Assembly: GCA_030141605.1 (NCBI GenBank)
Contig: JAQGDQ010000126.1
Location: 312,001-376,000, forward strand
Direction: 5' to 3'
Source: Tubiluchus corallicola
Lineage: Eukaryota; Priapulida; Priapulimorpha; Priapulimorphida; Tubiluchidae
Length of the DNA: 64,000 nucleotides
Position 1 is the stretch's first letter, and the number at the start of each line of letters is the position of its first letter. A model generated the notes under the pieces. The model worked only from the letters and a program-made list of their open reading frames with translations, had not been told where the DNA came from and made no database searches. Positions 1 to 42,731 of the stretch are shown in pieces. The position numbers were made by a program, and so were the translations under genes.

Positions 1-2
1 AA

Positions 3-222
3 GACCAGGAGGGCATTCCTGAAGAAGTGACAATTACATCGATAGATGACGTTACTATACCATTGATTGTAGAACTGAAAAACAACAATGTTTCGAAAGA
101 ACATCTTCCCTTTCTTCAGAAGTCATTACCAAGAGAATACATTAAACACAATGTAATGCCAGTTATTTTGGAGCAGTATATGGCAGAATATCCGGGAAAG
201 TTGTCCATAGGTGATACCAGTG
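3..222 (+). CDS. Partial exon of an unrecognised protein
   Basis: An open frame enters from the left edge at base 3 and runs to a stop at 231-233. A good donor (GTG|GTAAGC, GT at 223-224) lies just before that stop, so the exon probably ends at 222. The peptide is rich in charged and aliphatic residues and contains LPREYIKHNVMPVILEQY, which looks helical. I do not recognise the family. A very loose resemblance to the short Dpy-30-type dimerisation helix is noted but not relied on. Nothing downstream continues it before the next gene, so it may instead be the terminal exon ending at the stop. Confidence 0.45.
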
Positions 223-1056
223 GTAAGCTGTAATCAATTTCTTCGGGAGTATCACTATTATATGTGATTTTATGTAAGTGTTATATATCACATCATTGTT
301 GATTAGCGTGCTGATTCCTCACGGTAATGCATGCTACAGTGCAGAACGTTACAGTTTCGTAATGCTATTGCACGCATTATAGTGCCGAGCTTATTAATGT
401 CGTGCAACATAAAAAACAAAAAGTTTGTTACCCAATGTTAATTAAATTTAGAGACTATTATTTTCCATGTTTTCTAGTCAAGCGTCTCAAAATTTTTACA
501 GTTTTAAAAGCTAGCAACTGACGAAAAATAAATACTTTTGGTACTAGAAATGAGTTTCCAGATACAATGTTCCTTGCTGTGAGTTATTTTGCTACTACCA
601 TACCTGCAATAATTAATTCACCTAGATTTCATCGAAAACATGTACTGATGCCAGACACCCGCGTGCAGCTTGGCTAATATTGCGCTGCAGACACGCTACA
701 TGAATATCTTAAATTTGCAATCTTTTTGAGATTTAACCAGGTGTGGTTTCTTGTGCAGTATCTCTCAGGTGTGCCATTTGAAGTGACTGGTACATTACCA
801 AAATCTAAGTGTTAAATAAACCACTCACCGAGGCACCAGTAACCTTGATCTAACCTTAGGTCCATTACAACCTTACAATGAACGCTGCGAAAATTAAGTT
901 AAGAAGTTGCAATTCTCGAAGCCGTACTACTTTTATACAGTTATTATATCTTATGTAATGAATTGAGAAATCAATCTGTTGGTCTTTTCAAATGATTAAA
1001 TACATGCAGTTATTTAGCAAAGTGAAGGTTTAGGTTAGATTAGCAACCACGTGCTG
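223..1056. other. Non-coding stretch before the fusion gene
   Basis: AT-rich sequence without a convincing exon, repeat or RNA gene. It is either the continuation of the intron or 3' flank of the first exon, or intergenic and promoter DNA for the gene starting at 1319. Confidence 0.4.
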
Positions 1057-1066
1057 CATCATCATT

Positions 1067-1164
<98 letters not shown>
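1057..1164. repeat. (CAT)n microsatellite
   Basis: About 35 nearly perfect CAT repeats with a single early interruption. The apparent poly-histidine reading frame is a by-product of the repeat. It ends about 155 bp upstream of the start codon of the pentraxin-receptor gene, in its probable promoter or 5' UTR. Confidence 0.97.
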
Positions 1165-1318
1165 TCTGGATTTTCCTTCATTCAAGCAAAGAAACATCTG
1201 TACGTTACACTGTTAAAGGGAATCCATTTGTCACAACGAATGCAGGCTTTTTATAATTTCGGATTGAAATGTACTTTAGTAAACACTGAAGGGAAACGTT
1301 AACACATTTTTCGAGAAT

Positions 1319-1647
1319 ATGCTAATGTGCACCATTTTCAGAAAACACGTTGGCGCAATAGCTGCATTCATTGTTTTGCCACGTTTAGCGTTTCCAGCTA
1401 TCACGTTCGACTTACAATTTCCGGGCAAGTGGGATACGGATTATGCGATGCTTCAGAGCCAAGATGGTTTGCCCGAACTAGCCGAGTTTACAATCTGCTT
1501 TCGTATACGAACTGAAGACCAGCAGACAGAAATGGCTATTCTCACTTACCACACTGACATGGAGTGCGCTGACTGTGAAGAATTGCAGATATATTTAGCA
1601 AACGAAAATTTGTTTCTGATTGTTAAAGGAACTGGCGCAAGGCATTT
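1319..1647 (+). CDS. Exon 1: signal peptide and pentraxin N-half
   Basis: Starts at ATG 1319 (or 1325). A hydrophobic leader (AIAAFIVLPRLAFPA) precedes ITFDLQFPGKW. The segment ELAEFTICFRIRTE followed by AILTYHT is the usual start of a pentraxin fold (FTVCLRVRT...ILSYAT). It ends in phase 2 before GTAAGT (1648). The split codon TT|A gives Leu110. Confidence 0.9.
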
Positions 1648-4600
1648 GTAAGTAGGTCTCAAATCGGGCATTTTCAAGTATGCTTCAGTTGTTATTTTGG
1701 CTATATTGTCTATATTAAAGTGAATTTTTTGGCGAATTTTTGTTTTTCTTGTTTACTTGCTTATTTACCTGTATTGTCTGCAAAATGTAGGAAACTTTGC
1801 GGAAGGCTGTCCCGTGCGTCCACTTTTTTATAAATCGCGGCAAATCAAGGCAAGACACAACAGCAAAAATGTGAAAAAGTCAACCTCGTTAAAACACCCC
1901 ATTTATAAGGCCAACTTTTAGCAACTTTTGGCGAAAGTCTATATTTGCACAGACATGTATGTAGTATACCTTGTTATAATACCAAACTCGTTGAATGTAC
2001 AATATTTAATGCTAACTTTTTTGCCGTCCCAAAGGTACAAAGGACATATCCATACAGATAGTCCAGAAGAATAGAATTTTTATGATAATTTGTTAAGTAA
2101 CTAGTAAGACGTACTTGTAGCGTCCAAGAATTTGTGTTTAAACATTTTGCTTATAGGTTATTTGTATGCAAGAGAAGACAACTGTAGTAATGGTCATAAA
2201 TCATGGATAATTTCATTAAAATTATTTAGTGCAAGCAATGAAAAACAGATGATTACAATTTAAACTTCAAGGCAAAATTAGCGTTGTAGATGTGTAAAAT
2301 ATTATTCTGCAATTGATATAAAGTTCTAAATGCTGATTGTACAAAATGGAAATGGAAAATGAGTGTACAATTTCATTTCAGAGATGGCGGCGCAGTAAGT
2401 TTTGGTCCAGAATATCGGAACGGTGAGTGGCATGCAGTATGTGCTACGTGGTGGAATCTAGATGGAGGTTGGTCAGTGTTTGTGGACGGCGTTGAAATTG
2501 GGAACGGCACCAGTCTAAGGCCCGGGAAGTACATCAAAAGTGGAGGTTTTCTGATAATCGGACAGGATGTAGATCCTATCGAAGGAAGCCTCAACTTTGA
2601 AGCATTTCAAAGCTTTACTGGAGTTCTGAGCGATTTGCAGATATTCAGCTATGCGATGATTTTGGAAGAGCTTTTACCAATTCAAACAAAATGCAAACAT
2701 GTACAAGGTGACATAATTTCCTGGCAGCATGTTCAGGGGTCAAGGTGGCTAAAATTGGGTGGCCTGAAGATGGTTAGACCAACTTCATCTTGCAGAAAAA
2801 AGGTGAAAGGTAGGGATATTACACAAGATTTGCAATTACGCTCGAAAAGAATTAGAAATGCAACATATATAATGACACTCTGTTGCGGTAGTAAATACAC
2901 AGTTAAATCTTGTAGTTTATAAAAATAGTAATATATTTTTTTTAATTTTGTGAACTTTTTATCAGTTTCAAAATCTTAGATTGGCATATTAAACGCGTTC
3001 AAATGAGACAATAATCTCTGTAGGATGATACATTTCACCCCATGTGAAGCAGCTGTCACAATAATTGTTGTCAATTAGCAGTTTGGGACTTTTAAATTAG
3101 TAATTTTAAATATTTGACATTCTTGGCCTATTGCAGGAAAAGTATTACGACCTTATTGGTTAGTGGAGCCACCTGGACCATATGCTGTTGGCGTCACTAT
3201 GGTAACCGATGTTTTAAAACACCACCTTAGAAAATGTAGTTTTTTGCTGTCAACACTGTACTGTGAAACAGTCATAAGATAATATTGGCTGTTTTTTCTA
3301 CTTCTTAAATATATTTTTAATTCCAATTATACCAATTATAGAAACAATTATGTATTTGCTATTGTTCAATAAAAGTACTCACGTTACCACGTATGAGTAT
3401 ACCAATTTGATTTGGCATTCCAAATTCGTAATTATTCTAAGTAATTTAAGTAATAAAAGAAACGGTACGCCATCACTTTTCTTATCCAGAACTTTAAAGT
3501 TCAGGTTCATCATCGCCATTCAACGTACGCTTTGACTAATGCTGTTGAAGTAGCTCAATTTTTTGGTTCTAAACATAATATTTTCATTTGACTGCAGCAA
3601 CAACCGTTTCTAATGGTTAATGACGTCAATTTGGTTGGCTTCACTGTTGATTTGATGGATGCTATCAGTATGGGTGGTCAATATTTTACTTACAAATTCG
3701 TTATATTTGACCATCTAGGACGAAATCAAACAGGTGCTTTGTGCAAACTTTCACTCGGAGTGAGTATTGACTTTTAATTAATTTGCGTAGGAGAGGGGTA
3801 ACCGTTGCCAAACTAACAGCAAATGCTGTTTTAGATCGCTGTCGTAATGATTTTAACAATATTGCAAGTAATCAAAATTTAAGCAATGAAATGAAAATTC
3901 AGAACACTCGGAAACTAAATAATGAGATAAAATAAAGTTTAAATCTCAGTTAAAACTTATTAGACGCCGGCCGAGATTATTTCTTTGCGGGGCGGGTGGC
4001 AAATTGAAAAGCTATGGTGAAGCAGGATAATCTTTGTCAAATCTTTGTGGTTTTAAATGAAATCACAGTCATCGGTTGTGCCTGCATAATTGACTATAAA
4101 AAGTAACATTAGCTTACCCACTTTACCGTACACATTGGGAGAATCGTTAAATTTTTACTTTAAAACATGAAATTCATTTTGTAATTATCAGTTGAAGAAA
4201 ATATTTGTAAAGATACATCTGTACAGTCTTCACGAAATGTGAAATGAAACATAAAATTGGTAAATCTAGTGCGCCAATTGACCATAAGCAATTTGATTTA
4301 TCCTTTAAATCCAGTGAGCAAATTGCTTCTGACATTCAATACATTGAGGTGTTACTAATCTAGTTTGTTTGCTACATAAAGGTTATAGACATACTAGCTG
4401 CTCCCACTACAATGACAAAGGAACGTCGAGAAGTGGTGACTTTCACACGCAAGTATATGACGTTCGGACTAACAATGATTATAAAAATACCAGGAGAACA
4501 GCACAGTATCTCCACAGTCGGTCACCTTGCAGCTGCTTTTCCTTGGCTCACTTGGCTTCTTACTATTGGCTCATTTATTCTCATGGCAGTTACAATGTGC

Positions 4601-7600
4601 ATCATTAACAGGTTTGTCTGTTCGTGCCATTTTAAATTTATGTGAGTAGCAATAAGTAATAAGTTGGTAGCCTGCAGCTCATAGTCTTATTGGCTATGTA
4701 GTACTGAGCCAAGGCGATTAGCAACTCGCAGGAGTATAATTACATTGTTCTATTCATCATTGTCGGAAGCGCCAGCGATATACGTAGCAAAATAATCTTT
4801 GTTGTTAACCAAACTTAGAAAAATAGTTAACAAAATAAATTAACAAAACGTACTTAGAAAGATAATTAACAAAATAAATTAAAAAGAGCGAAGCCTCTAG
4901 AAGACGTAATTAAACTACCTCTATAAAACCGTTTTTCTGTTTTTCTAGTTAAAATGATAGTTAAATCCTTTATTAAACATTTTAGTTTGATCAATGTAAA
5001 TTGTAAAGTTGCAAAAAATTCACGCGTTTTCCTTATTGGCAACAAGTAGATGTATAATTTTCAGTATTTTCAGTAAGCCCTTCAACATGCAGTTTATCTG
5101 TTGCTGCGGCAGGGAACGTGGAAATAATTAAAAGAAACGTGGCACATTCCGTTGGTAAATTACGACGTTAATTTTTCTATTATTTCACACAGAATGGATC
5201 CCTATGAAAGACGTCTACAATTCAAACGGGAGGGAAAGGGTACAGAGATGGACTTGGTAGAGTTTGGCGCCGAGGGATCAATGTATTGGCTATCAAGCAT
5301 GATTCTTCAACAAGGTATGAAACATTACATCAAAATCACCTTTTAGGAAAAGCTTAATTTGGTAACTAAAAAAACCGCATTTAGATTTTCACCGCAAAAA
5401 TGCAAATTAATTAAAATGTCCGTACAACTTAATTATAGCTGACAAATGTTTGAGAACATTTCGTGAACATTCAACTACTGATTATTATTTTTGTTTTCGT
5501 TATTATCTTTTACTTCCATTATTATAATTTGTCATAACAACCAATATTTGAAAAGAGCCATGAAATTAAAAATTTATGAATTCTTAGATAATAGATATAA
5601 TGCTTTCAAATAAAAAAATAATCAGAGTGAAGTACATTTCAAAGTTTCAAACATTATTTTTCTAGCGTCAATGTTCAATAATATTAGGAGCTTACAGCCA
5701 GAGAGACACTCACTGCAATGTATGTTCACTTAAAGTAAAAAAATCTACGTAAGAGTTTGATATTCGTACTTTGTTACAGAAACAACGGTGCTCAGATCAC
5801 AGTGGATTTTTTTGTCAATTTCTCTCTATTTAATTCAGTCTACACAATTTCTTAAAGTTAACATTAAAGTTAACACTTAGACCGAGTCGTCGGGATCAAA
5901 ATCGAGCTTAGAACCAGACGTACGTTTTTTCTAGCAACATTGTTTACTCACCTATTTTAAAATGCACACGATTTTTTTATCTCTTGGCAGGTTATAACGC
6001 TGAACCAGTATCAAGAGCTGGTCGTGTGTTATTGGTCACTTGGTGGATATTCTCACTCTTCATGCTGCTCTCGTATGCTGTCAATCTCATATCTAACAAT
6101 CTCAACGTCCATGGTAACGCGGATGGCATACTCTCTAGGATACATTCTATTGAGGATCTTCTTAAACAAGACGACCTAGAATTTGGCTGTGTGGAAGGTT
6201 ACGCTACTGAAGAGTTTTTTAGAGCCTCTGAAAATATTTACGTTAAGAAGGCTTACGAAAAAATGCAGAACTGGCATTCGATGGTAAGAGACTAATACAG
6301 GTGTCTGTGCGCGACGGGCGCTAAAATATGAGTGCAACAATTTCTTAGATGTAGTTAATAGTTTTTATTGTTCAAAATGGTATTTTAGTCATTGTCGCCA
6401 CAAACCATAATCATCATTACATCTTGACAGATTTGACTGACTGACATTATATCATCTACGACTGGTCTTCATTTTCTCTGAAGAAAACAAAACAATTTGT
6501 GCTAAACAAAGCATCAAAACTTAATGATAATGGAATACGTTGAAATTAAATCTACATCTTTGACCATCTTTGATTGCAAATGAGAATTCGTCTGACAGAA
6601 ATTTTAACAGAAAACGACTTGACATACTGGACAAATGACTCCTTTACTACCTTGCCTCGAAATGAGACCAATCTATTCCAGCAAAACCTGTCTACGAACA
6701 GGTCTAATTTTAGAAAGCAAACACTGGGAAGCACCACATGTTTATATCCAAAAAAGTGTCTCAAAAGTCAGTACTGATTTGCAGTTTTCTCTTCCAAATT
6801 TTCTCAAATTTCGGCAAACTCTAATATGAATGAAATGGGGTCTTTGACGATTCTTTTTGCTTAAATTTTGACTGACTTTCCGTTACTATGGAAACGGTCC
6901 TAACGTTAGAGATATGATGCAAGAACTCAAACCGGCAAGAGGCTTTTCGATCACTGGAGTGCAGCGGTTTGTGGACACTACGCTCTCGCTATTTATAACG
7001 CAGTTTTTAACAAAGTGGAACCCGTCCTCACTACTCGCAGCTGTGAGTGACTTTCTCAAAGCAAGATAACCCGACTTGACACTGGATGGGTCATTGAGGT
7101 TTTTTGCCTGGAAATTTGTGACTTGACAGATTTGACAGCCAGCAGGACACCCTGTTTACTTGAACAAATCTCCTCTTACTTAAGTCTTCAAAAATTGACG
7201 TCAGAAAAATTCTCGTCAGCACCACAAGTAAAGCATTATTCAGCAACTACATTTATGCAGAACTAATTCTTGATTCTATTTTATAAGCATTTTTTACAAA
7301 TTCATTGTACAGACAAAATCAATTGATGAAGGATATAACAGAGTAAAACAAGGCGGATATGTTTTCTTCTTGGAGTCCGTCTACGCAGAGTACTTGGCAA
7401 ATAAAGACTGTTCGATTATAATTCTCGGAGACCCTATCAACGAGGAAAGCTTTGGGCTTGCAACACCTGAGCTCAGCCTAGAAAATACTCTTCTCAGTGT
7501 TAGACTGGAACATTTGCTAATGGATGGTACCATACAAAATCTGTAAGTAAGATACCGGCAGTAGGGAGAGCCTACATTTAATAGTATACACAGTTGCAAA

Positions 7601-10600
7601 AATTGCAGATCTTTCATCTAAACCTTTTACAAATTCTCATCTATAGGCAATTTAAGAGTTTCAAGCCAAATACAGTCTTAACTATGTTCAGCGACAATTG
7701 TCAAGAATCCCGCACCTCATGTTAATTTTTATTGCTCAGTGGTTTTGAGGTCTTGTGAGTCTGGAGCTCAAAAAATGGGTGACACTTGTGACGGACCACT
7801 TATATGTGCTGTTTATTTTTGTCATGATCGTGAACCTATTTATCTAGTTTGGCTCGAAAGTGCACCTCACAAAAGAAATTGGTTCTTATTAACCATCAAA
7901 TTAAAGATGTGTTGAGCCGAAACACGGATTTTCCTGGAACACTTATATGTGTTGATTATTTTTGTCATGATCGTGAACCTATTTATTTAGTTTGGCTCGA
8001 AAGTGCACCTCACAAAAGAAATTGGTTCTTATTAACCATCAAATTAAAGATGTGTCGAGCCGAAACACGGATTTTCCTAAAGCACGTGCTGTGAGTTTTG
8101 TTTTATTTCCCTAACGTGTACCGTCGTTACTATTGCAATATAATATTTAGGAAAACTAGTGGACGTTTTTGCTGGGCCAAAAACTGTGGTAAGATTCTGC
8201 TTCTGTGATTGGAGATGCTTTATGTGACAGCCTTTCAAAAGAATTTTTTTTGTAGTTGACATTTTACATGTAAGTACTGTTGTGCTTGACATTAAAAGCT
8301 TCAGTGAAATCAGAACTTGTCACTTTTTCACTAGTGGTCCATAACTCAAGGCTGTGATGGGCATAATTGCGAATCCATTGAATTCGCCATGCTTGATTAC
8401 TTAGGAACTCGATTTCGTTTTAGTAAAATCATTCGATACTATACTTTCTTGACAAGTGACTAATCACCAGCCTAATTCTGAGCAGTTCCTGTGTTGCTTT
8501 TCTTAGCAACGAAACACACAACGTAGCCACACAAGTATTTCCTTTCCTAGTTATCAGTGAGTGTCAGAAAATTGCAAAGTAATTAATTTCACTAGCATTT
8601 TAACGTTAACACATGTAACTAACATGTAATTAACTAATGTAACTAACGGAAAAAGTTCTGCCATGCCCTCTATGACCTTTTACCTGAGGGTAACGGGTTG
8701 CACAAAAACATAAATTCCCCTACCTATGCCGTGTGCCTTGTGAGTTTTGTAAACCTAGCCAGTACGTGTGCGAGTTATTAAACAGAAAGGCATAAATAAA
8801 TAAAGAAATCATAAAAACCGGGAGTAAATCAAGGAGATTCTGCTGCAATCTTACGGCAATCTCAGTTAATCCAAATAAGCTAGGTATTAAATTCAAATGC
8901 TTTATTTCATCACGCGTATGAAAACTGAGCTCAGGTTATTTTAAAACAAAGTGTACCGGTACCGGTTTACCACGTCAGAGCTCCAGTCTTGGTGTTCACA
9001 GCTTCTCCGTTCCATAATCATCGTTTTATCATTCCATACTGCAAAACAGAGCTACATCATTCCATTCTCATGTCCTATGGTTCCATGCCATACCATCCGT
9101 CATACGATCCTGTATTAAGTTCCGACAACTGCCAGCTCACTTCACGGATCGCCACCTCTTCGCCTCACCGCTCGTATTGTAGCTTCCTCGTTACACGTCA
9201 GTCTAGCTTGCCTGACTCCGCTCACCAACTTGCTAGGAGTTTCACCAATGCAAGTTTAGATTAGGTTCCGTTTTCCCTAGACCAATTAACAAGCCATTTT
9301 GTCTCTAGCTATATCGTTTGAAGAAGTTTCACAATAATATTTATCAAAGCGTCCCATTAACATCGTCAAATAAACGTTCAAACTGAGTAGTATAGACAGA
9401 CTTTAGACGTGCCTGCCATACCTTCAATATGCTCAGTAACCAAACCTCAACTGTGTAGAAAGATCGAGAAATTCACTTCTTCTCGACGACTTACATGAAT
9501 CACCCGTTGTATTTAGGCATTTTTAAAATAAACAATGAGGAAAGTATTCATTAAACATAACTATGTTACTTGTACTAATTTCACAACTGTACATATGCAA
9601 AAGTAAACTGCTTCATCTCGTACAGAAGTGTTTTAAGTTCAAATAATCTCAACACTATAGCGAGCAACATATAAGAAATTAATCTAATTAATAAAGATAT
9701 AAATTGTCGGACGTCCGATAGGGTACGAAAATAATGCACTTTTACAAACAACTTTCAGGGTCTTTTGAAGGTCAATCGATATTATTTTAAGAAAAACGGG
9801 GATAAGGGTGATTTAAATCATTCCACTTGGTACTGAAATTTTAAAGAAAGGCACGTTAAGTTACCAAAAATATGTCAGAGCTTATTTTCATATCAAGGTC
9901 AAGGTTTTTGCGATGTATCATTAAAAGAAAATCAATTTATTTCAGAAAAAAAGTATAGTTTGGAGTATAAGTTGGCAATTTGCACGTGATTCACTCAAAA
10001 TCTTAAGCCTAAGTTTCATGCTGCTGTGTTGATTTCGTGATGCCTTTTTAAGCAAAGCGTCTTACTGGGTTGCCCTCATGTTACCTTGGTGCTCCTGTAT
10101 TATACAGTTGTCCAGCTAGTAATCTACCCTGGGATATAGATTGTACATGAATGGAAATATTTTGCTAAGCAGAGGTTTAAATTGTAAGTGTGAGGATTTT
10201 TCCTGAATTTCAAACACCAGGTGGCAGCAGTTAAAGTTAAAAGGGGGGACTGTAGATACTGACGTGGCAAGGCTTAATGTATGAATCGAGGAGCTAATTT
10301 TTGTTATTGTGTTTGCCAAATATTTGTATTTTTTATTGTCTTAGTGCTACATGCATTTCATCTTTGAGCCAACTATATGCTGCTATATGATGTAAGTAAT
10401 TAAGAGAGTTACATCCCCCTTTCTTGAATTTCTAAATCTGTATTCACACATCAGAAAACGTACTATAAGATTTTAGGCTACAATTTTACTTTTTAATTAG
10501 CTATACTTTGGATTTGAGCGTCTTGCGCTAAGCCGTATACTTATTTTACTCAAACATTTGGCGTGCTTTTCTTAATTTGCAGATTAAACGATAATACTAC

Positions 10601-11299
10601 AAAAAAGTAGTTACCGTAAGTGTCCTGCAAATACGTAAACGGAGCAAAGATATACTCTTTATCTTTTCATGTACACGTTGTATATGATTATACGATTATA
10701 CCATAATTGTTGGAGACACGTACGCTGGCGAATATCTGTTTTAGTTGTCTTGTATAACGCAATCACTCAAATCAGACAGGCAAAAAGTTGTTTTGTTTAT
10801 CTGCAGTTTTTAGAATACGTGTTTTGCCTAAAGTATTTTACAGTATTGTTGTTGTTGTTGTCATCATCATCATCATCATCCTCTTCCTCCTCCTCTTACT
10901 CATCATAGTCATCATCATTATCAGCATCATCACCATCCATTAGTCGTCATTATCGTCGTCGTCACAGTCGCCATCATTTTAAAAAAATTAAAAAAATTGC
11001 AGGCAATATGATTTCCTGCTCTTCTCATATAACTTTAATACATTCACAGGCAATTTAATAAGCTCGTTTAGTTTTGTTTACTTAATTATTGTACTACTGA
11101 TGACTATGATTTTTGCAGGAAAGATAAATGGTTTGGTAGGCGAGATTGTCCTGGTGACGACGCATGCGCCGGTAGAGACAGAAATGTGATGGATACTAAG
11201 AAAACCATGTTGGCGTTCATAATTCTGCTTGTTGGATGGGGACTAAGCATCGTAGTTTTAATAATAGAAATCAAAGTCTATAAAAAATTACATTCGTAA
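1319..11299 (+). CDS. Pentraxin-ionotropic glutamate receptor fusion, 9 exons
   Basis: Predicted ligand-gated cation channel subunit. Exons: 1319-1647, 2382-2809, 3137-3201, 3598-3759, 4382-4611, 5193-5314, 5991-6283, 7313-7542, 11119-11299. They total 2040 nt (679 codons plus stop); every phase matches and each border is GT..AG. Residues 1-27 are a signal peptide (a second ATG at 1325 would also serve). Residues 30 to about 225 are a pentraxin domain. S1 starts near 270. APTTMTKER (335-343) matches the GluA2 APLTITLVR agonist loop. M1 is about 380-404, the pore loop ends MILQQG (441-446), M3 is about 457-480, S2 contains GYATEEFFRAS and FFLES, and M4 is about 650-672. The usual amino-terminal LIVBP-like domain is absent. 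Family roles are established knowledge; the fusion is inferred from phase-consistent exons. The main alternative is two genes or isoforms separated by intronic polyadenylation. Confidence 0.88.
2382..2809 (+). CDS. Exon 2: pentraxin C-half
   Basis: The acceptor is atttcag at 2381. It contains EWHAVCATWWNLDGGWSVFV, then GGFLIIGQDVDPIEG and NFEAFQSFTGVLSDLQIF, which match the pentraxin core. D172, D174, E183 and Q186 fall where acidic or Gln calcium ligands of C-reactive protein lie (E138, D140, E147, Q150), while Q139 is replaced by Val. The classical HxCxSW signature has one extra residue (HAVCATW). The donor is GAAAG|GTAGGG (GT at 2810), phase 1. Reading through the donor reaches a stop at 2920-2922. 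Confidence 0.9.
3137..3201 (+). CDS. Exon 3: pentraxin-to-S1 linker
   Basis: A 65-nt exon. The acceptor is ctattgcag (AG 3135-3136) and the donor ATG|GTAACC. In phase 1 it reads KVLRPYWLVEPPGPYAVGVTM. The other phase that could follow exon 2 (phase 0) hits a stop after nine codons. The last residues, VGVTM, followed by QQPF of exon 4, align with the start of S1 in AMPA and NMDA receptors (VTTILE-P, VTIHQEPF). Confidence 0.82.
3598..3759 (+). CDS. Exon 4: S1, first part
   Basis: Phase 0 at both ends. It reads QQPFLMVNDVNLVGFTVDLM, then GGQYFTYKFVIFDHLG and TGALCKLSLG. This follows the iGluR S1 pattern EPFVM..GYCIDL..FTYK..NGMVGEL..G. The donor is CGGA|GTGAGT (GT 3760). Confidence 0.88.
4382..4611 (+). 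CDS. Exon 5: S1 agonist loop and M1
   Basis: Begins VIDILAAPTTMTKERREV. P336, T338 and R343 match GluA2 P478, T480 and R485, the residues that hold the amino-acid backbone of the ligand. TRKYMTFGLTMIIK follows the SKPFMxLGISIL consensus. The hydrophobic stretch FPWLTWLLTIGSFILMAVTM is M1. The donor is AACAG|GTTTGT (GT 4612), phase 2. Confidence 0.92.
5193..5314 (+). CDS. Exon 6: M1-M2 linker and pore loop
   Basis: The acceptor is tttcacacag. The first codon completes AG|A (Arg), giving RMDPYERRL, equivalent to the RFSPYEW motif. The pore helix and loop read FGAEGSMYWLSSMILQQ, with Gln444 at the AMPA/kainate Q/R site. The donor is CAAG|GTATGA, phase 1. Confidence 0.92.
5991..6283 (+). CDS. 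Exon 7: M3 gate and S2, first part
   Basis: Follows acceptor ctcttggcag. VSRAGRVLLVTWWIFSLFML leads into M3. The near-invariant SYTANLAAF is SYAVNLISN here. S2 starts with IHSIEDLLKQDDLEFGCVEG and has ATEEFFRAS at the GSTKEFF position. GluA2 S654 is Ala here and T655 is kept as T518. The donor is ATG|GTAAGA, phase 0. Confidence 0.92.
7313..7542 (+). CDS. Exon 8: S2, main part
   Basis: Phase 0 start after ttgtacag. It reads IDEGYNRVKQGGYVFFLES. E564 in FFLES aligns with GluA2 E705, the ligand amino-group anchor of glutamate-type sites. Cys576 in NKDCS is the first member of the conserved S2 disulfide. SFGLATP matches GYGIATP. The donor is CT|GTAAGT (GT 7543), phase 2. Confidence 0.92.
7797..8082. 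repeat. Two-copy 143-bp tandem duplication
   Basis: The block beginning cacttatatgtg at 7797 recurs at 7940 with only a few differences. Each unit includes gtttggctcgaaagtgcacc and ends near aacacggattttcct. It is a recent local duplication inside intron 8. Confidence 0.95.
10848..10975. repeat. (TTG)n/(TCA)n microsatellites
   Basis: Short TTG repeats followed by TCA, TCC and TCG runs in the last intron of the fusion gene, about 140 bp before exon 9. Confidence 0.9.
11119..11299 (+). CDS. Exon 9: end of S2, M4 and C-terminus
   Basis: Acceptor tttttgcag at 11118. The split codon CT|G gives Leu620, followed by KDKWFGRRDCPGDDAC, equivalent to KNKWWYDKGEC; Cys630 or Cys635 pairs with Cys576. 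MLAFIILLVGWGLSIVVLII is M4. The tail is only about nine residues (EIKVYKKLHS) before TAA at 11297-11299, far shorter than vertebrate receptor tails. Confidence 0.9.
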
Positions 11300-17408: not shown

Positions 17409-19016
17409 ATGGCAAATTGTTCAGTGGAAGTCAACATAACGTCGCTGTGTTACACTCATTCAGTTACCACAACGGTTGAATTTGGTTACGACGATGTTCT
17501 GATAATTGCAGCTTGTTGCCTCCTGATCATTTGTGCATTAGTGGGAAACTTGCTGGTCATTGTCGCTGTCGCCACTAATCGTCGCCTACGGTCAGTGACA
17601 AATTGCTTCGTGGTTTCTCTGGCGGCTGCTGATGCTTTGGTGGCAGTTCTCGTGATGCCCATGGCTACTGCAGAAGAAGTTACCAATACGTGGGTGTTTG
17701 GTCGGTTTATGTGTGACGTCTACACATCAATGGATGTAATGATGTGCACTGCATCAATACTTAATCTGTGTTGCATTAGCGTTGATAGATATCTGGCAAT
17801 AACAAGACCATTAATGTATGTAACGAAGCGTACTAAGAAGCTTGCGTTGATTATGGTAACAGTGGCTTGGCTACTGTCTGCTGTTATAATACTTCCTGCT
17901 GTTGTGGGATGGAAGGACAAGGAGTATGGTTTAGACGATACAGTGTGTTATATACCACGTGCACCTGGTTTCGTGGTTTACTCTGCTTGTGGCTCATTTT
18001 TCATTCCAATGGTTATCATGCTTTATATGTATTACAGAATATTTCGTGTTGCAAATAATCGCGAGAAGTACCTCACATCATACACCCGCCACTTGTCTGG
18101 AAAATATGGCTCTAATTCTGGCAATGAAGATGCCAGTTTAAGTGACATCAGTGCTAGTAACAAAAATCTTAACGAAGATAAGGGCAGTGGCTCACGGGGT
18201 ATAACAATGGAGAAATCAAAATTCAGTTTTTACCGTTTCCAACCAAAGCGACTGTGTGAAGTGTACCTATTGCGGGCTGTTAGTGCAAAATGTTCCACCA
18301 AATGTGAATCCATTCCGCTTGGCAAAGATTCTGTAGAATTAAACATTTGTGCCCAATCTCCAAAATCTTGCAGGACTGGAGAAAGTTCTTTGACGGTCAG
18401 AAACATGCATGTACAACATTCCACGTCTTGCCCCGGTTCATTTAATAGGCCAATCAGTCAACGAAGTGGCAATTTAATTTCACTTGAACGTGATGTTCCG
18501 TGGAAAGAATCACCTCAAAATACCAACCCGAGTCAATCTGTGGAAGACGACCGTGACACTGAAAAAACAAAAGCCAAAGAACAAGCAATTTTTAAAAAGG
18601 AGCACAAGGCAGCAAAAACGCTTGCTATAGTAGTTGGAGCGTTCACAGTGTGTTGGATGCCTTTCTTTGCACTGTACGTAGTTAAACCTTTCTGTCAGTG
18701 CGACATTCCACACGCTTGGCTTCGATTCACTGTTTGGTTGGGTTATTTAAACTCAGCCGTCAATCCACTAATTTACGCATTTCATAGTGCAGAGTTTCGA
18801 CACACGTTCTGGTCTCTCACGTGTGCCCTAATTTGCAAACTTTGCAGTTCGAATGCCCCAGAATCGAGCCAACCGACTGTGGTAGGAACAATAGAAAGGA
18901 AAATGGTTTTGCAAACTGCAGAATCTTCTAAATTACACAAGAAAGGCGAAGCACAATATGGCAGTAGGCAACTTAGTAGTGGCGGAAATGCATTGGTAAT
19001 ACCTAATCTTGTCTAA
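17409..19016 (+). CDS. Biogenic-amine GPCR (alpha1-adrenergic/octopamine/dopamine-like)
   Basis: Single-exon class A receptor, 535 aa from ATG 17409 (the frame is open slightly upstream but has no earlier ATG). Seven membrane segments are visible. Hallmarks: GNLLV in TM1 (N47), SLAAADALV in TM2 (D75), DVMMCTASILNLC in TM3 with Asp109 at 3.32 for the amine, DRY 126-128, Cys102-Cys180, YSACGSFF in TM5 (Ser at 5.42 and 5.46, Ala at 5.43), CWMPFF in TM6 (415-420), WLGYLNSAVNPLIY in TM7. The N-terminus has NCS and NIT glycosylation sites. The TM5 SAxGSF pattern and the TM6/TM7 wording are closest to alpha1-adrenergic and octopamine receptors, but dopamine or tyramine cannot be excluded. The third intracellular loop is long (about 185 aa), which is often associated with Gi or Gq coupling; the G protein cannot be read from sequence. 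Confidence 0.93.
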   Translation: MANCSVEVNITSLCYTHSVTTTVEFGYDDVLIIAACCLLIICALVGNLLVIVAVATNRRLRSVTNCFVVSLAAADALVAVLVMPMATAEEVTNTWVFGRFMCDVYTSMDVMMCTASILNLCCISVDRYLAITRPLMYVTKRTKKLALIMVTVAWLLSAVIILPAVVGWKDKEYGLDDTVCYIPRAPGFVVYSACGSFFIPMVIMLYMYYRIFRVANNREKYLTSYTRHLSGKYGSNSGNEDASLSDISASNKNLNEDKGSGSRGITMEKSKFSFYRFQPKRLCEVYLLRAVSAKCSTKCESIPLGKDSVELNICAQSPKSCRTGESSLTVRNMHVQHSTSCPGSFNRPISQRSGNLISLERDVPWKESPQNTNPSQSVEDDRDTEKTKAKEQAIFKKEHKAAKTLAIVVGAFTVCWMPFFALYVVKPFCQCDIPHAWLRFTVWLGYLNSAVNPLIYAFHSAEFRHTFWSLTCALICKLCSSNAPESSQPTVVGTIERKMVLQTAESSKLHKKGEAQYGSRQLSSGGNALVIPNLV

Positions 19017-31155: not shown

Positions 31156-31163
31156 GCAGCGCA

Positions 31164-32873
31164 ATGTCTAATTGTCAACGATGGTTAATATTTTCTACAA
31201 TTTACACAGTCATTTTTGCAAAAGGTTTTGAAACAAAATGTGAAAAAAACGAGGAGACGGCATTGATCATGATACCAATTCTTGCAAGAAACAAAGCGCA
31301 TACATTGCCGCATTATTTGGGCTATATCGATGAGTTGAATTATCCAAAGAGCAAGATTGCATTGTGGATAAGAACTGATCATAATATAGACAACACTTCG
31401 GCAATATTACTCGAGTGGATCAGTAAAGTTGAAGGGAAATACCACTCAATTGATTTCAATTCCGTTGAACACCCGAAATCATTTCCTGGCGAAGATTCTC
31501 CACTTTCTTGGTCCCAGTTTAGGTTCACACATATTATCAATCTCCGAGAGGGAGCCTTAACGGCAGCGCGAAAAATAAGAGCAGACTATGTATTTTTCAT
31601 TGATTGTGATAACTTCATTGAAAATAGCAAAACACTGAAGGTACTTATTAATGCCAATAAAACAGTTATAGCTCCTATGTTAGAATCACGATCTACTTAT
31701 TCGAACTTTTGGGGTGCACAAACTGCAAATGGGTATTACAAACGAAATGCAGAATATATAAAGATATATAAGAAGTTCAAACGTGGCTGTTTCCCAATTG
31801 CAGTTGTCCATTCCTCTTTTCTGATTGACCTCAAAAATTCTACATCAATGGCCTTAACATTTGATAATAAAAAACTTAAAAGCAATTATGATAAAGAACG
31901 TGATGACGTTCTCATTTTTGCTCACTCTGCACAGGCTGCTGGAATTCAGCAATTCGTCTGTAATTATGAGGATTTTGGTCTCCTTACCATTCCGCAAACA
32001 GACATGCAGGCTGATATCCAGGAAGTCACCAACTTAAAAATTGGAGCAATGGAAACATTTTCTACAGATGAGGTATGTTGGGAAATGAACAAAAGACGGT
32101 ACAATAAACAATTTTTGACATCACAATACATAACAGCATTAAGGCAGAAGAAAGACTCGTTGGGTTTTGACAGGGTGTTTGTAATAAACCTTCAACGACG
32201 ACCAGAAAGAAAGCAACGTATGACGGCGATGTTTGAGGCACTTGATATAGAAGTTGAATTCATTGATGCCTGGGATGGGCTTAAGTTGAACAAAAGTTGG
32301 CTAGCAGAAAATGGAATCAGAGAACTAGAAGGATATAGAGATCCGTTTCTTCACCGTTCAATAAAGTTAGGTGAAGTTGCAACAACAATGTCACATCACA
32401 AAACGTGGAAAGAGATTGTAGATAAAGGTTACAGAAGTGCACTCATATTTGAGGATGATGCTATGCTTGTTACCAACTACCGACAGAAGATACGTGAAGT
32501 CATGGACGAAGCAGAGAAACTTCATTGGGAGTTCATCAACTTCGGTGGCAAGTTTCTTGACAATTTCTGGAAATCTGCCAAGGACTCAAAGTTTTTTGTG
32601 ATCCCCGGTTACACCTACTTGCTGCATTCTTATGCCCTCACATTTTCTGGTGCCCAAAAATTGGTGCAAGGCAAGCCACTGGAAAAAATTGTGGCCGTTG
32701 ATGAGTATGTACCAATCATGTACAACAAACATCCTAATGCTGAATGGAGTTCAAAATTCACTCCAAAGTCTTTGCGTGCATTTGCTACAAAGGATTGGCT
32801 AGCCTATCCAAGCTTGGAGCTACATCATTATGTCAGTGACGGTTATAATTCTCCATTATTGAATGAAACGTGA
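31164..32873 (+). CDS. COLGALT: Procollagen galactosyltransferase (GLT25D/COLGALT family), intronless
   Basis: 569 aa in one exon. The family transfers galactose from UDP-galactose to hydroxylysine of collagens in the ER lumen. A hydrophobic leader (WLIFSTIYTVIFA) gives a signal peptide. The N-terminal glycosyltransferase half has YVFFIDCDNF (DxD at 147-149). The C-terminal GT25 half has VFVINLQRRPERKQRM (from 338), GEVATTMSHHKTW, ALIFEDDAM (426-434) and VDEYVPIMY (from 512). These correspond to the three acidic sites known in human COLGALT1. Length is slightly short of human (622 aa). The C-terminus ends LLNET; the RDEL-type ER-retention tail of the vertebrate enzymes is missing. A polypyrimidine acceptor at 31110 suggests a 5' UTR intron. 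Lack of coding introns could mean a retrocopy, but the frame is intact and likely functional. Confidence 0.93.
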   Translation: MSNCQRWLIFSTIYTVIFAKGFETKCEKNEETALIMIPILARNKAHTLPHYLGYIDELNYPKSKIALWIRTDHNIDNTSAILLEWISKVEGKYHSIDFNSVEHPKSFPGEDSPLSWSQFRFTHIINLREGALTAARKIRADYVFFIDCDNFIENSKTLKVLINANKTVIAPMLESRSTYSNFWGAQTANGYYKRNAEYIKIYKKFKRGCFPIAVVHSSFLIDLKNSTSMALTFDNKKLKSNYDKERDDVLIFAHSAQAAGIQQFVCNYEDFGLLTIPQTDMQADIQEVTNLKIGAMETFSTDEVCWEMNKRRYNKQFLTSQYITALRQKKDSLGFDRVFVINLQRRPERKQRMTAMFEALDIEVEFIDAWDGLKLNKSWLAENGIRELEGYRDPFLHRSIKLGEVATTMSHHKTWKEIVDKGYRSALIFEDDAMLVTNYRQKIREVMDEAEKLHWEFINFGGKFLDNFWKSAKDSKFFVIPGYTYLLHSYALTFSGAQKLVQGKPLEKIVAVDEYVPIMYNKHPNAEWSSKFTPKSLRAFATKDWLAYPSLELHHYVSDGYNSPLLNET

Positions 32874-34104: not shown

Positions 34105-35330
34105 TGGATACTGATAGAAATTTTTATTACTCACTGATACTTACTTAAAATTTGATTTTTTAGCATTTTTTAAATCTAGTAATAGATCTGCTATCTTTTG
34201 CGGATTGACAAATCTCATTCCAGACTTTTGGTCCTTGATATATTATAAAATGTTTAGCTATGTTGGTTCTACAGAAAGGCACAATGTATTGATTAAATCT
34301 TGTATTATGTCTCTTAGATGTCAATTTGACAGGAATTGCAAAAAACTTAGGAAATAGTCTATTATTGCATTTATACATGAATACTGCAATATTAAATTTA
34401 ATTAAAACATCTAAATGCATAATTCTACATTCACGGTAATGAAGTAAAGGTACTTCACTACGTTTCTGTAGGCCATACATTAACCTTAAAAATTTTCAGG
34501 CATTTCAGTTTAGATGGATATGTGGGGCCCCAAATAATGCTGCAGTAATTGAGATAAGGTAAAACCAGACTATTATACAGGATTAGTAAGTGTTCTTTCG
34601 AAAGACTGTGTTTCATGTGAGTAATGATGCCTATATTTTTAGCAATTTTAAGTCGAATATAAGAGATATGTGATTGCCAGTCTAAGTGTTCATGTATGAC
34701 AATGCCTAAGAATTTAATCTGCTTTACTTGTTGAATATAACTATTTTCAATTTGTAATGTCAAATTTGGCATTCTCTTGTTTCTTGATCTAAAAACTACA
34801 AATTTAGTTTTGGAAGCATTTAGTGATAATTTATTACTCCTAAACCAGTTAGATATTTGCTGCAATTCATTGTTTATTTCAGCTTCATTAACAGTATTGT
34901 AATATTTAAATATTAAACTGGTGTCATCAGCAAACTGCAGGATTTTCCATTATTAGTACAATGTTTTATATGATTAATGTACACAAGAAACAAGAGTGGG
35001 CCAAGTATCGACCCTTGTGGAACACCACAAGATATTAATTTGCAACACCTCTTATTCCATAGTGGTATAATTTGTTAATTAAAATTTTATGATCAACAGT
35101 GTCAAAAGCTTTTGACAGATCACAAAAAATACTCACAGATAACTTATTATCTTCAATATCTCTGATTATGTTGGTCAGCATATCAATTAAAGCCATTTCT
35201 GTAGTACTGCCTTTACGAAATCCATACTGTGTGTCGTTTAATATGCTTTGTTTATGTAAATAATCTGTAAGTTGCAAAGACACAATAATTCTCAATGCTA
35301 CATTAGCTTGCATCTCAGTTAGTCGCATTA
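34105..35330 (-). mobile_element. CR1/jockey-like LINE ORF2 remnant
   Basis: Minus strand, from RT to C-terminus. It reads YGFRKGSTTEMALIDMLTNI, DLSKAFDTVDHKIL, then (after an internal deletion) [18 protein letters not shown] and FADDTSLIF near 34940, the thumb (WFRSNKLSLNASKTKFVVF), and a typical tail QGPKVWNEICQSAKDSRS. Frameshifts and the deletion between GIRGVAN and GVPQGS make it inactive. FADD is the RT catalytic box. Confidence 0.9.
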
Positions 35331-35828: not shown

Positions 35829-36205
35829 ACCAACCAAAAAGTAAAAATCTACATGCACATATACGCTGATGAACGCTAATCATTGTTATATCCTTGCAAC
35901 GTCATTTTATTTATAAAAAAAAACAGTTTTTGAAATCGGCACGAAATGCAGAATCCTTACTTTTTAGTCTTTGCTGTTGTTGTTGGTGATGGTTTTATTG
36001 TCATATTTTTCTTTGAAGCTATCACAAGTCATAGCGTTTATCGCACAATTCATAGTATTTATCGTAGAAGGCTGAAATTTTACATAGTCTTTTGTACAGA
36101 CATCTCAGTAGAGCCCTCGATTGTGTCCGTTAAGTGGATCAGCTAGATGAAATATGCAGCTAAAAAAGTCACAAAACGTTAAAGGAGGCACAATTAAAAA
36201 GAAAT

Positions 36206-36775
36206 AACAATGATAGGAGAACACAGTTCCGGTCTGCTACTAGGTACTCGGTGAGCATTATTAATTTCGTACAGCTCCACTTTAACACCAATATGATTAG
36301 CTACTTCTGAAACTATATTGACTGCATCCTCAGCGTTTGTTTATGGTATACCAATAATTTCAGGGCAGTCATTTCTCTGGTACCTTTCTAATTTGTTCAT
36401 TTTTTCTTCCAATGTTGTAGTCAACTGCTTCAGCTTATTGAATCTGTCTTCCAAATCATCAAGAGCTGGTAATTTTGCATTTTCTGTTTCAACTCGACTT
36501 AGTCTCTTCTCATGATCGTTCAGCAGTTTTGTATTGGTATTAACAGAAGTCTGAACTGTCTGAACCACTGAGTTGATCTTAAGTTGTTCATCCTTTAACT
36601 CTCTTATATCGTTCATTATCATCTCAAGTGCAGTAAGTTGACTCAAAATTTTGTCCAATTTTTGGTCCTGAGTTGTTGATACTTCTGCGGTTTCAATATC
36701 TGAACTATTATTCATGCCTTCTGATTGTTTATTAGCTGACCGTAATGAGCTTCGTTTATCGTTTTGCTTTGGCAT
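36206..36775 (-). mobile_element. LINE ORF1 N-terminal fragment, unit 1
   Basis: Starts MPKQNDKRSSLRSANKQSEG, with a coiled-coil region (LDKILSQLTALEMIMNDIRE) and the beginning of the RRM-like domain. A GAA-to-TAA change in IPETNA (near 36350) interrupts unit 1. The part 36206-36400 duplicates 35640-35828. Confidence 0.87.
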
Positions 36776-36884
36776 TTCTAATATTATTCAGTACGAACGT
36801 ATCATCAGTACCAAAAGCGTAAACACTCATAATTAATAGCAATAGACATACATATTCTGCCACATCTTTAAGACATAGATTCTC

Positions 36885-37220
36885 ATGCTCTCCTGTTTCT
36901 CTATAAGTACATCAGCCAATATTAATTCTCGTTTCAAAAACAATAAGCTCCCTCTTTTTCAAAACCCTAGCATTAATAATAGAACACTAAATTTGAGAAA
37001 CTTTAGAATGAACAATTTCATGGAAAAAATTCCATTACTAAGCAAGCAATACAATTTTGGAATGCATTACCGACATCCCTGAAACAAAGCAGCTCTTTAT
37101 CAATATTCAAATCTAAATTAAAACAACGTTTAATGACTCGTTTTGAATATCCGACACACGAACATGATGATATTCACTCAAATCATGATTTCATTTATTT
37201 AGACCTTACTAGACTATAAA
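36885..37220 (+). mobile_element. LINE ORF2 3' end, unit 1
   Basis: Plus-strand C-terminal signature: after a frameshift it reads FWNALPTSLKQSSSLSIFKS, followed by KLKQRLMTRFEYP. This is the usual W-N-LP--IK-S-SL--FK tail of CR1/jockey-like RT proteins. It is followed by a 3' UTR with a GT repeat (37222-37300) and an AATAAAG (near 37540) running into the TAC/TGC tail. Confidence 0.82.
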
Positions 37221-37221
37221 A

Positions 37222-37222
37222 T

Positions 37223-37278
<56 letters not shown>

Positions 37279-37302
37279 TGCGTGCGTGCGTGCGTGCGTG
37301 TA
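37222..37302. repeat. (GT)n/(GCGT)n repeat, unit 1
   Basis: GT run followed by TGCG repeats; it recurs at 40012-40080 and 42732-42808 with different lengths. Confidence 0.95.
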
Positions 37303-37547
37303 GGTGGGTGGGTGCGTACGTTCGTGCGAGCAGACATGAAAGTGCGTGTATTAAAAGAAAGAGAGAAAAATAGTGTGTGTAGTTTTATCATAGTGCATTG
37401 TGTGTTTGTTGTTTATCTTTTATTTTTGAATTTCTGGTTGCACTTGTAGTTTAGTTTGGACCAGACGCATTTGTTTTTATTTGAACTAACACTGATTGTC
37501 TGTCTTTTTATAATGATGGTCAATGTTTCTAAAAAGGTAGAATAAAG

Positions 37548-37635
37548 ATTATACTACTACTACTGCTGCTGCTGCTGCTGGTGCTGCTGCTGGTGCTGCT
37601 GCTACTGCTACTGCTACTGTTACTGCTACTGCTGG

Positions 37636-37667
<32 letters not shown>

Positions 37668-37688
37668 CTGCTACTACTACTACTACTG

Positions 37689-37723
<35 letters not shown>

Positions 37724-37751
37724 ACTGCTACTGCTACTGCTACTGCTACTG

Positions 37752-37831
<80 letters not shown>

Positions 37832-37832
37832 G

Positions 37833-37863
<31 letters not shown>
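37548..37863. repeat. (TAC/TGC)n trinucleotide tract, unit 1
   Basis: About 316 bp of TAC and TGC triplets directly after gaataaagatta, the probable 3' end of the plus-strand LINE, so it looks like an expanded retrotransposon tail. Poly-Ser and poly-Leu frames here are not genes. Confidence 0.95.
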
Positions 37864-37865
<2 letters not shown>

Positions 37866-37876
37866 AAACGAATGTT

Positions 37877-37955
37877 ATTGGCTAGTTTAACCAAGTTTGA
37901 AGCTAGATCATTACGTCAGTGGCGGTTATAGTTCTCCACCAATGAATGAAACGTG
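37877..37955 (+). pseudogene. Galactosyltransferase 3'-end remnant, unit 1
   Basis: About 79 bp homologous to the last codons of the gene at 31164-32873 (matching 32794-32872). In frame it reads WLV, a stop (TAA where the gene has TAT), PSLKLDHYVSGGYSSPPMNE, T, W; the gene reads WLAYPSLELHHYVSDGYNSP. The original TGA stop is TGG here. It is evidence of an older, diverged copy of this gene. Confidence 0.88.
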
Positions 37956-38168
37956 GTGCTCTGTAAAATAAAATTCATTAAAGATTTATAAATTATTATA
38001 AATTATATCATTATTATATGTCTTACGTAAATTTCTTAAGTTTTGTAACCGAAAATTGCATTCTTGTTAAATTTAAAAGAGCACTTCATATAGTTAAACT
38101 TGCCTTTGTTAAACGTTAGTCATTGTATGGAACTGAAAAATTTGTTGCTTTTACTTTTTATTTTATAT

Positions 38169-38400
38169 TGTTACGGGGGTTAAATGCCATTTATTTTCGA
38201 CCCTCTCTACATTGTGATGGTTCGATCCATTATGAAGCCATTGCATATTAGCACTGCATAGCAGCACGACATAACAGCTATAAGTAGCTGGTATGGAATG
38301 GTCCCGTCGGTTTAGTCGACAGACGGACAGGTGCGTTTACCACCTAAGCACCTGTTCCTGTAGTTACGATCAGAATGAGGAACACAGGAAAAGATTCTGG
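38169..38400 (+). mobile_element. LTR-like segment, unit 1
   Basis: Begins tgttacgggggttaaatgcc and runs parallel to the solo LTR at 44723-45056 through tataagtagctggtatggaa and the caggtg...cacctg block, then diverges. The same segment occurs at 40889 and 43650. Confidence 0.75.
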
Positions 38401-38449
38401 CTAGTTTTCGTTTTAATTTTCTGTTTAAATTTTTGTATTTCTTCAACAT

Positions 38450-38515
38450 GGTTTGGCTGATCCAGATTTGAACCCTGATCGCCTCCCCAATAATAGGTTT
38501 GCGCAGCACAAATAA
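38450..38515 (-). mobile_element. tRNA-like (box B) fragment, unit 1
   Basis: On the minus strand it reads gatcagggttcaaatctgga, a box-B-like motif, near the end of the unit. It is either a SINE fragment or the primer-binding region behind the LTR-like segment. Box A is not visible. It recurs in units 2 and 3. Confidence 0.4.
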
Positions 38516-38978
38516 TGTAATGAATAAAAACAATTTTTTGTACAAGTAAAATAAATGTGGAGGACTTTCTGGGACTGTGCGCAGCTACTTATTAAGTACC
38601 AACCAAAAAGTAAAAATCTACATGCACATATACGTTGATGAATGCTAATCATTGTTATATCCTTGCAACGTCATTTTATTTATAAAAAAAACTGTTTTTG
38701 TAATCGGCACGAAATGCAGAATCCTTACTTTTTAGTCTTTGCTGTTGTTGTTGGTGATGGTTTTATTGTCATATTTTTCTTTGAAGCTATCACAAGTCAT
38801 AGCGTTTATCGCACAATTCATAGTATTTATCGTAGAAGGCTGAAATTTTACATAGTCTTTTGTACAGACTTCTCAGTAGAGCCCTCGATTGTGTCCGTTA
38901 AGTGGATCAGCTAGATGAAGTATGCAGCTAAAAAAGTCACAAAACGTTAAAGGAGGCACAATTAAAAAGAAATAACAA

Positions 38979-39543
38979 TGATAGGAGAACACAGTTCCGG
39001 TCTGCTACTAGGTACTCGGTGAGCATTATTAATTTCGTACAGCTCCACTTTAACACCAATATGGTTAGCTACTTCTGAAACTATATTGACTGCATCCTCA
39101 GCGTTTGTTTCTGGTATACCAATAATTTCAGGGCAGTCATTTCTCTGGTACCTTTCTAATTTGTTAATTTTTTCTTCCAATGTTGTATTCAACTGCTTCA
39201 GCTTATTGAATCTGTCTTCCAAATCATCAAGAGCTGGTAATTTTGCATTTTCTGTTTCAACTCGACTTAGTCTCTTCTCATGATCGTTCAGCAGTTTTGA
39301 ATTGGTATTAACAGAAGTCTGAACTGTCTGAACCACTGAGTTGATCTTAAGTTGTTCATCTTTTAACTCTCTTATATCGTTCATTATCATCTCAAGTGCA
39401 GTAAGTTGACTCAAAATTTTGTCCAATTTTTGGTCCTGAGTTGTTGATACTTCTACGGTTTCAATATCTGAACTATTATTCATGCCTTCTGATTGTTTAT
39501 TAGCTGACCGTAATGAGCTTCGTTTATCGTTTTGCTTTGGCAT
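38979..39543 (-). mobile_element. LINE ORF1 N-terminal fragment, unit 2
   Basis: Uninterrupted frame of about 190 codons, starting MPKQNDKRSS and truncated after RPELCSPIIV, where the unit sequence takes over (VISF then stop). No GAA-to-TAA change as in unit 1. Confidence 0.88.
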
Positions 39544-39673
39544 TTCTAATATTATTCAGTACGAACGTATCATCAGTACCAAAAGCGTAAACACTCATAA
39601 TTAATAGCAATAGACATACATATTCTGCCACATCTTTAAGAAAATCCCCGTATTGGAAGCCACATAGATTATC

Positions 39674-40010
39674 ATGCTCTCCTGTTTCTCTATAAGTACA
39701 TCAGCCAATATTAATTCTCGTTTCAAAAACAATAAGCTCCCTCTTTTTCAAAACCCTAGCATGAATAATAGAACACTAAATTTGAGAAACATTAGAATGA
39801 ACAATTTCATGGAAAAAATTCCATTACTAAGCAAGCAATACAATTTTGGAATGCATTACCGACATCCCTGAAACAAAGCAGCTCTTTATCAATATTCAAA
39901 TCTAAATTAAAACAACGTTTAATGACTCGTTTTGAATATCCGACACACGAACATGATGATATTCACTCAAATCATGATTTCATTTATTTAGACCTTACTA
40001 GACTATAAAA
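39674..40010 (+). mobile_element. LINE ORF2 3' end, unit 2
   Basis: Same as unit 1, with the ATTTTGGAATGCATTACCGA (WNALP) signature and GT repeat behind it. Confidence 0.82.
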
Positions 40011-40011
40011 T

Positions 40012-40069
<58 letters not shown>

Positions 40070-42728: not shown

Positions 42729-42731
42729 AAT

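Follow-up and report, generated by a model that had tools for sequence, protein, structure and literature searches.

Pentraxins are normally secreted proteins that help to cluster receptors or bind microbes, and the neuronal pentraxins exert their effect on AMPA receptors externally, as binding partners of the amino-terminal domains. A locus in the priapulid Tubiluchus corallicola raises the question of whether a pentraxin can instead form part of a receptor chain. In the 64,000-nucleotide stretch of contig JAQGDQ010000126.1 analysed here (the window; assembly of 343.5 Mb in 2344 contigs), a series of exons appears to join a pentraxin domain to the core of an ionotropic glutamate receptor (iGluR), in the place of the LIVBP-like amino-terminal domain (ATD). 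Such a receptor would be a natural experiment on whether the ATD serves assembly, anchoring or gating, and would raise the further question of how a fold that often forms pentamers fits a channel that is tetrameric.

Rebuilding the gene from the sequence reproduced the original prediction: nine exons with GT..AG borders at 8/8 introns, phases 2, 1, 0, 0, 2, 1, 0, 2, and a product of 679 amino acids with zero in-frame stops. Exons and fusion junction are as follows.

Exon 1, 1319..1647, plus strand: start codon and signal peptide (residues ~1-27), then the N-terminal half of the pentraxin domain
Exon 2, 2382..2809, plus strand: second half of the pentraxin domain, opening at a phase-2 acceptor as in pentraxin paralogues
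Intron 2, the putative fusion junction, 2810..3136, plus strand: donor AAG/GTAGGG (slash marking the splice border); reading on meets a stop at 2920-2922
Exon 3, 3137..3201, plus strand: 65 nt; linker and first S1 strand (...GPYAVGVTM)
Exon 4, 3598..3759, plus strand: S1 (QQPFLM...)
Exon 5, 4382..4611, plus strand: remaining S1 and M1; R343 (GluA2 R485), with P336 (GluA2 P478) and T338 (GluA2 T480)
Exon 6, 5193..5314, plus strand: M1-M2 loop and pore up to QQ (Q444, the Q/R site)
Exon 7, 5991..6283, plus strand: end of the pore loop, M3 (SYAVNLISN) and start of S2, including Y516 (position 653) and T518 (T655)
Exon 8, 7313..7542, plus strand: S2, with E564 (E705), Y567 (M708), C576 and F590 (Y732)
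Exon 9, 11119..11299 (stop included), plus strand: end of S2, C630, M4 (651-669) and a short tail

Using a codon score with a small training set (two intronless frames of the window versus the introns of this gene model), all nine exons scored highest in their true frame. Intron 8 carries two 143-bp tandem copies, 96% alike (window 7793-8078).

The domain content of the protein agreed with the gene model. Pfam placed Pentaxin (PF00354) at residues 33-228 (7e-21; 75.2 bits versus a curated cut-off of 25), Lig_chan at 384-659 (1e-18), SBP_bac_3 at 270-626 (2.5e-11) and Lig_chan-Glu_bd at 270-365 (8.5e-9), with pentraxin and channel domains both exceeding the curated cut-offs. Hydropathy showed a single signal-peptide-like start (residues ~1-27) together with M1, M3 and M4. 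A split S1/S2 ligand-binding domain (LBD) with M1, re-entrant pore, M3 and M4 was present, so that Pfam and hydropathy together bore out the predicted series of signal peptide, pentraxin and complete S1-M1-pore-M3-S2-M4 core. The signal peptide abuts the pentraxin domain directly, the N-terminal coiled coils of neuronal pentraxins being absent, and a linker of ~18 residues separates the pentraxin from the iGluR core. A classical metazoan iGluR carries a LIVBP-like ATD (ANF_receptor, PF01094), whereas Pfam gave no match to this domain in the 679-aa protein. An Rfam search gave no match at gathering scores. A protein in which a pentraxin ectodomain replaces the ATD of an iGluR core is, as a prediction from the gene, well supported.

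When compared with solved structures, the pentraxin half best matched NPTX2 (9lad, 3e-21), NPTX1 and Limulus SAP (3flp), with further matches to CRP, PTX3 and the ADGRG4 domain (8b55, 1.6e-6). Identity to NPTX2 was 58/174 aligned residues, and C60 and C130 aligned with NPTX2 cysteines, at the place of the core disulfide (C36-C97 in CRP). At the site of the pentraxin family signature, HxCx[ST]Wx[ST], the protein reads AVCATWWN and does not match it. Of the loop positions of the Ca2+-coordinating CRP residues E138/D140/E147/Q150, 4/4 carry an acid or amide (D172, D174, E183, Q186) in an alignment made via NPTX2, not CRP. Exon 2 alone gave a mean pLDDT of 40 in single-sequence structure prediction, and this model was discarded. 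According to PMC12799932, NPTX2 is secreted and oligomerises via N-terminal coiled coils, whereas the pentraxin predicted here would be tethered to a channel and is without them.

Pentraxin exons are expanded in this genome. A search with exon 2 found at least 110 matches at E <= 10, 109 of them besides the fusion gene, and several contigs carry more than one (e.g. C2060, C1639, C1922, C1385 and C162). In all of the best 7 of the 109 (L002-L008; ~four independent cases, given close copies within two groups), the loop in which the matching exon begins is that of the fusion gene, and the acceptor is of phase 2, 13-18 residues ahead of the conserved tryptophan (15 in the fusion gene, read off the DNA). 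These paralogues, which with Limulus SAP belong to the CRP/SAP-type pentraxins, share the domain, the phase-2 intron and the C-terminal cysteine with the fusion gene. In 7/7 the gene then ends, with a stop codon 3-7 residues past the last cysteine. The fusion gene keeps the phase-2 acceptor and the cysteine (C247), and a splice donor stands in place of the stop: exon 2 ends five full codons and one base after C247, the donor falling in the sixth codon. A donor at the pentraxin end is not unique to the fusion gene, since the paralogue L004 has a similar donor-like site (AAG/GTAATT) just ahead of its stop.

Scored with approximate metazoan splice-site frequencies not trained on this genome, the exon 2 donor was the strongest of the gene and among the best-scoring 0.38% of all GTs across the window, the exon 3 acceptor was among the best-scoring 0.86% of AGs, exon 3 came first among 35 phase-compatible bridging exons (13.4 versus 7.9 for the runner-up), and an equally good bridge arose in 3/3000 random placements (window, both strands, two modules, same spacing). 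Read in its true frame, exon 3 also looked like coding sequence, at 0.248 bits per codon, a value based on only 21 codons. Its contribution to the S1 profile was +2.2 bits; as a means of recognising the exon, homology was set aside as non-discriminating, with decoys at 40.6, 40.6, 39.5 and 38.7 versus 40.7 for exon 3.

The stop at 2920-2922 admits a two-gene reading: the transcript of a secreted pentraxin would end in intron 2, and a separate iGluR would have an unseen 5' exon of its own. Consistent with this, the exon 2 frame runs on for 42 residues beyond C247 before the stop, poly-A-like hexamers occur at 2890, 2918 and 2988 (such hexamers being frequent in AT-rich DNA), and all seven pentraxin paralogues examined terminate by a stop. 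Their stops, however, lie 3-7 residues after the cysteine and not 42, the high-ranking exon 2 donor is in phase with exon 3, and a chance bridge of this quality is rare. A set of 27 single first exons of compatible phase was collected from window 1-3136, with a minimum of 15 codons and a donor score greater than 0. None supplied a different receptor signal peptide, the only such starts being shortened versions of the one in exon 1, whose donors are weak (1.4 and 1.8). On this evidence we consider two genes very unlikely.

In a different arrangement, the pentraxin would be nested or skipped and the N-terminus of the receptor would come from upstream exons. Window 1-233 holds the 3' part of a coding exon, which ends at a stop (231-233) or at a donor-like G/GTAAGC at 222. 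This donor scores 8.95 and, at phase 1, is compatible with exon 3, which makes the partial exon a candidate for such a beginning. The fragment, ending at 222 or 230, nevertheless has zero Pfam matches and only chance-level PDB matches, and exons 1-2 would require an end of their own. Inspection by eye revealed no ATD-like frame in the 20 kb upstream (frames of at least 75 aa), and although the genome has at least 122 ANF_receptor matches, none is listed on the fusion contig, C1740 (115/230 candidates scored). A nested or skipped pentraxin therefore seems extremely improbable. In line with the original prediction, Pfam found no LIVBP-like domain in the protein, and the 27 first exons included no different signal peptide.

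A further possibility is that a single gene has two products: transcripts that end in intron 2 would give a secreted pentraxin, and those with the intron removed would give the membrane receptor. The frame that runs open into intron 2 to the stop at 2920-2922, with poly-A-like hexamers close by, would allow this. Such hexamers are common here, however, and the 36-residue tail beyond the donor is without counterpart in the seven paralogues examined; we regard the second product as unlikely. This arrangement overlaps with the reading of the locus as one fused gene, as does that of a dead channel, considered below.

Introns of the receptor half, like those of the pentraxin half, recur in ordinary genes of the same genome. 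The intron before QQPFLM has the same position, with phase 0 acceptors, in three iGluR genes on contig C1776 that form one cluster and are non-independent, each acceptor sitting exactly before an E/T-x-P-Y-V/L-M motif matching QQPFLM. Donors matching GVTM follow RVTSIM in L029 (contig C716) and KVTTIL and RITTII in L036 (C1776 cluster); acceptors and donors in S1 were located by pattern, in a non-exhaustive search. The 3' end of exon 3 thus coincides with a phase 0 intron of this genome's ordinary iGluRs. Of the later introns, the one before DIxxAP is the same in 5/6 receptor loci clearly and in the sixth probably, and the one after QQG in 3/6, the remaining loci having an intron elsewhere; the 5' intron of exon 5 is among those that ordinary iGluRs share. 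Two very similar receptors, L027 and L028, run intronless through these sites, each with one uninterrupted open frame (919 and 923 aa); by their features they are IR25a-like, a type suggestive of a protostome.

The case for exon 3 rests on how its splice sites score, on its reading frame and coding score, and on the intron that follows it, which ordinary iGluRs share. The fusion layout as a whole is well supported, since this genome's ordinary pentraxin and iGluR genes have introns in common with it. Judged from the gene sequence, pentraxin and iGluR are very probably fused in one gene, and the predicted junction falls in an intron, with the place where pentraxins naturally end on one side and the beginning of S1 on the other. 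It would represent an unusually clean case of two intron-bearing genes fused at domain boundaries.

No second fusion was found in the genome when at least 110 pentraxin exon matches were compared with at least 25 receptor exon matches. Besides C1740, contigs with both exon types were C788 (121 kb apart), C2306 (~23 kb apart, in the wrong order) and C460 (414 kb apart). When the protein database was searched, 7866 candidates yielded no match to the full-length protein at E <= 0.001, and 55 candidates yielded none to the exon 2 frame at E <= 1. As a control, the collagen galactosyltransferase of the window matched 348 proteins (120 listed, animal-named), so that animals are represented in the database. 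The absence of the fusion from the database is weak evidence, because even ordinary iGluRs were missed and the word filter is insensitive to distant relatives. The original prediction had named no described receptor with this layout, and a literature search likewise found no description of a pentraxin-iGluR layout, most subscription papers and preprints being outside its reach; the passages of PMC9083331 that were searched describe no pentraxin-headed glutamate receptor.

The core shares the S1-M1-pore-M3-S2-M4 order of AMPA/kainate iGluRs such as GluA2, and a PDB search with the core returned 295 distinct structures, of which the 60 best were named AMPA subunits or "Glutamate receptor". The best solved match was GluA2 (4u1x), with 90 identities among the 295 aligned residues that were counted, and S1 alone also matched GluD1. 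In a core tree of 13 rows, several of them partial, the fusion gene adjoins L020, L026, L027 and L028 (support 0.763, branch 1.34), four receptors that are IR-like by our own reading; core identity to L027 and L028 is 22-23%. The fusion core is a long branch in this tree, and its class is not settled by the 13 rows. According to Croset 2010 (PMC2924276), ionotropic receptors (IRs) are mostly without an ATD, like the fusion protein. IRs are recognised by the lack of an ATD together with an N-terminus without known-domain homology; the fusion protein has no ATD, but it does have a pentraxin, a recognisable N-terminal domain, and unlike IRs it keeps the R/T/E ligand residues.

Comparison of the ligand pocket and gating elements with GluA2 showed both conservation and change. 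Kept were P478, T480, R485, T655, E705 and the Q at the Q/R site, as well as the S2 cysteine pair; G653Y, M708Y, Y732F and D590N were changed. The M3 motif SYTANLAAF has become SYAVNLISN, in which S, Y, N and L are kept and the others altered. GluA2 numbering, other than for P478 and T480, follows PMC12226733 and PMC6307864; in the latter, metazoan iGluRs are marked by R485 with an acidic residue at 705, a combination found here as R343 and E564. Of the positions associated with glutamate specificity (G/S/T653, T655 and Y732; PMC12226733), 1/3 agrees (T655), with Y653 and F732 at the others. Tyr at 653 was seen in the fusion gene alone among the 13 core rows compared. Ramos-Vicente et al. (PMC6307864) report Tyr653 in five Branchiostoma receptors, in one of which it was modelled as pocket-blocking, and Tyr653 probably fills the pocket of the fusion LBD. 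With this residue, which the original prediction does not mention, in the pocket, ordinary glutamate gating cannot be assumed.

These substitutions also raise the question of whether the fusion gene is real and its channel dead or decaying. Tyr653, the altered M3 motif and the long branch all point that way. Against it, the nine exons are open and, within the limits of the small training set, 9/9 score best in the true frame, and the S2 cysteine pair and M1/M3/M4 are present; we consider a dead channel improbable.

The intron positions support an origin in which pentraxin exons were joined to those iGluR exons that start at the first S1 strand, a splice donor having replaced the terminal pentraxin stop. 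The product would be a membrane channel subunit made of a signal peptide, one pentraxin domain and an ATD-less iGluR core. As the likeliest mechanism, the pentraxin domain may take over the work of the ATD: subunits would pair through it within the tetramer, and its Ca2+-coordinating loop, kept for the most part, could bind an extracellular partner, anchoring or clustering the channel. The LBD retains its clamps for the alpha groups of an amino acid. In PMC12799932, two Ca2+ are bound in the PTX domain of NPTX2, and a construct of NPTX2 that includes this domain bound the GluA4 ATD only when Ca2+ was present; for binding of the NPTX2 domain to GluA4 the value given is 13.6 uM. With Tyr653 probably filling the pocket, the fusion subunit would probably act as an anchoring or modulating partner in heteromers and not as an ordinary glutamate-gated homomer. 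We propose this anchoring mechanism tentatively, as a serious possibility that falls short of probable. Of the original prediction, the pentraxin in place of the ATD is well supported; the idea of a channel with its own clustering partner built in is an interpretation and, given Tyr653 in the pocket, one option only.

A pentraxin-like domain is also found outermost in a membrane receptor in the adhesion GPCR ADGRG4/GPR112, which, unlike the fusion channel, is a seven-helix receptor with a long stalk. As described in PMC10687090, the ADGRG4 domain dimerises without Ca2+ and the CRP-type Ca2+ carboxylates are not conserved in it. It is an imperfect model for the fusion protein, because its dimer needs no Ca2+ and the Ca2+ residues are missing. 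By analogy with it, a pentraxin dimer would suit a tetramer better than a pentamer would, sidestepping the five-to-four symmetry clash. It could also be imagined that a ligand of the pentraxin, and not glutamate, gates or primes the channel, with Tyr653 plugging the pocket; the controlling signal would then come from the pentraxin heads as they bind, in a Ca2+-dependent manner, an extracellular or microbial surface ligand. This seems doubtful to us; if true, an immune-type or synaptic recognition domain would have been converted directly into ion current.

Other features were seen in the window. At 17412-19010 a frame without introns encodes a 533-aa rhodopsin-type GPCR whose third loop is long (7tm_1, 1e-76) and which has an aminergic look by our own reading, and part of a second rhodopsin-type GPCR, probably its first exon, lies at 56615-57043 (7tm_1, 2e-16). 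The collagen galactosyltransferase-like frame (Glyco_transf_25) at 31161-32867 is intronless, with at most 43% identity to the 120 listed proteins, and formed a long branch of unsupported placement in a 34-row tree. From ~36000 to 44300 the window contains near-identical few-kb repeats, each with the same minus-strand coiled-coil-like frame and a long triplet array, and a reverse transcriptase fragment is located near them (34461-34949, minus strand).
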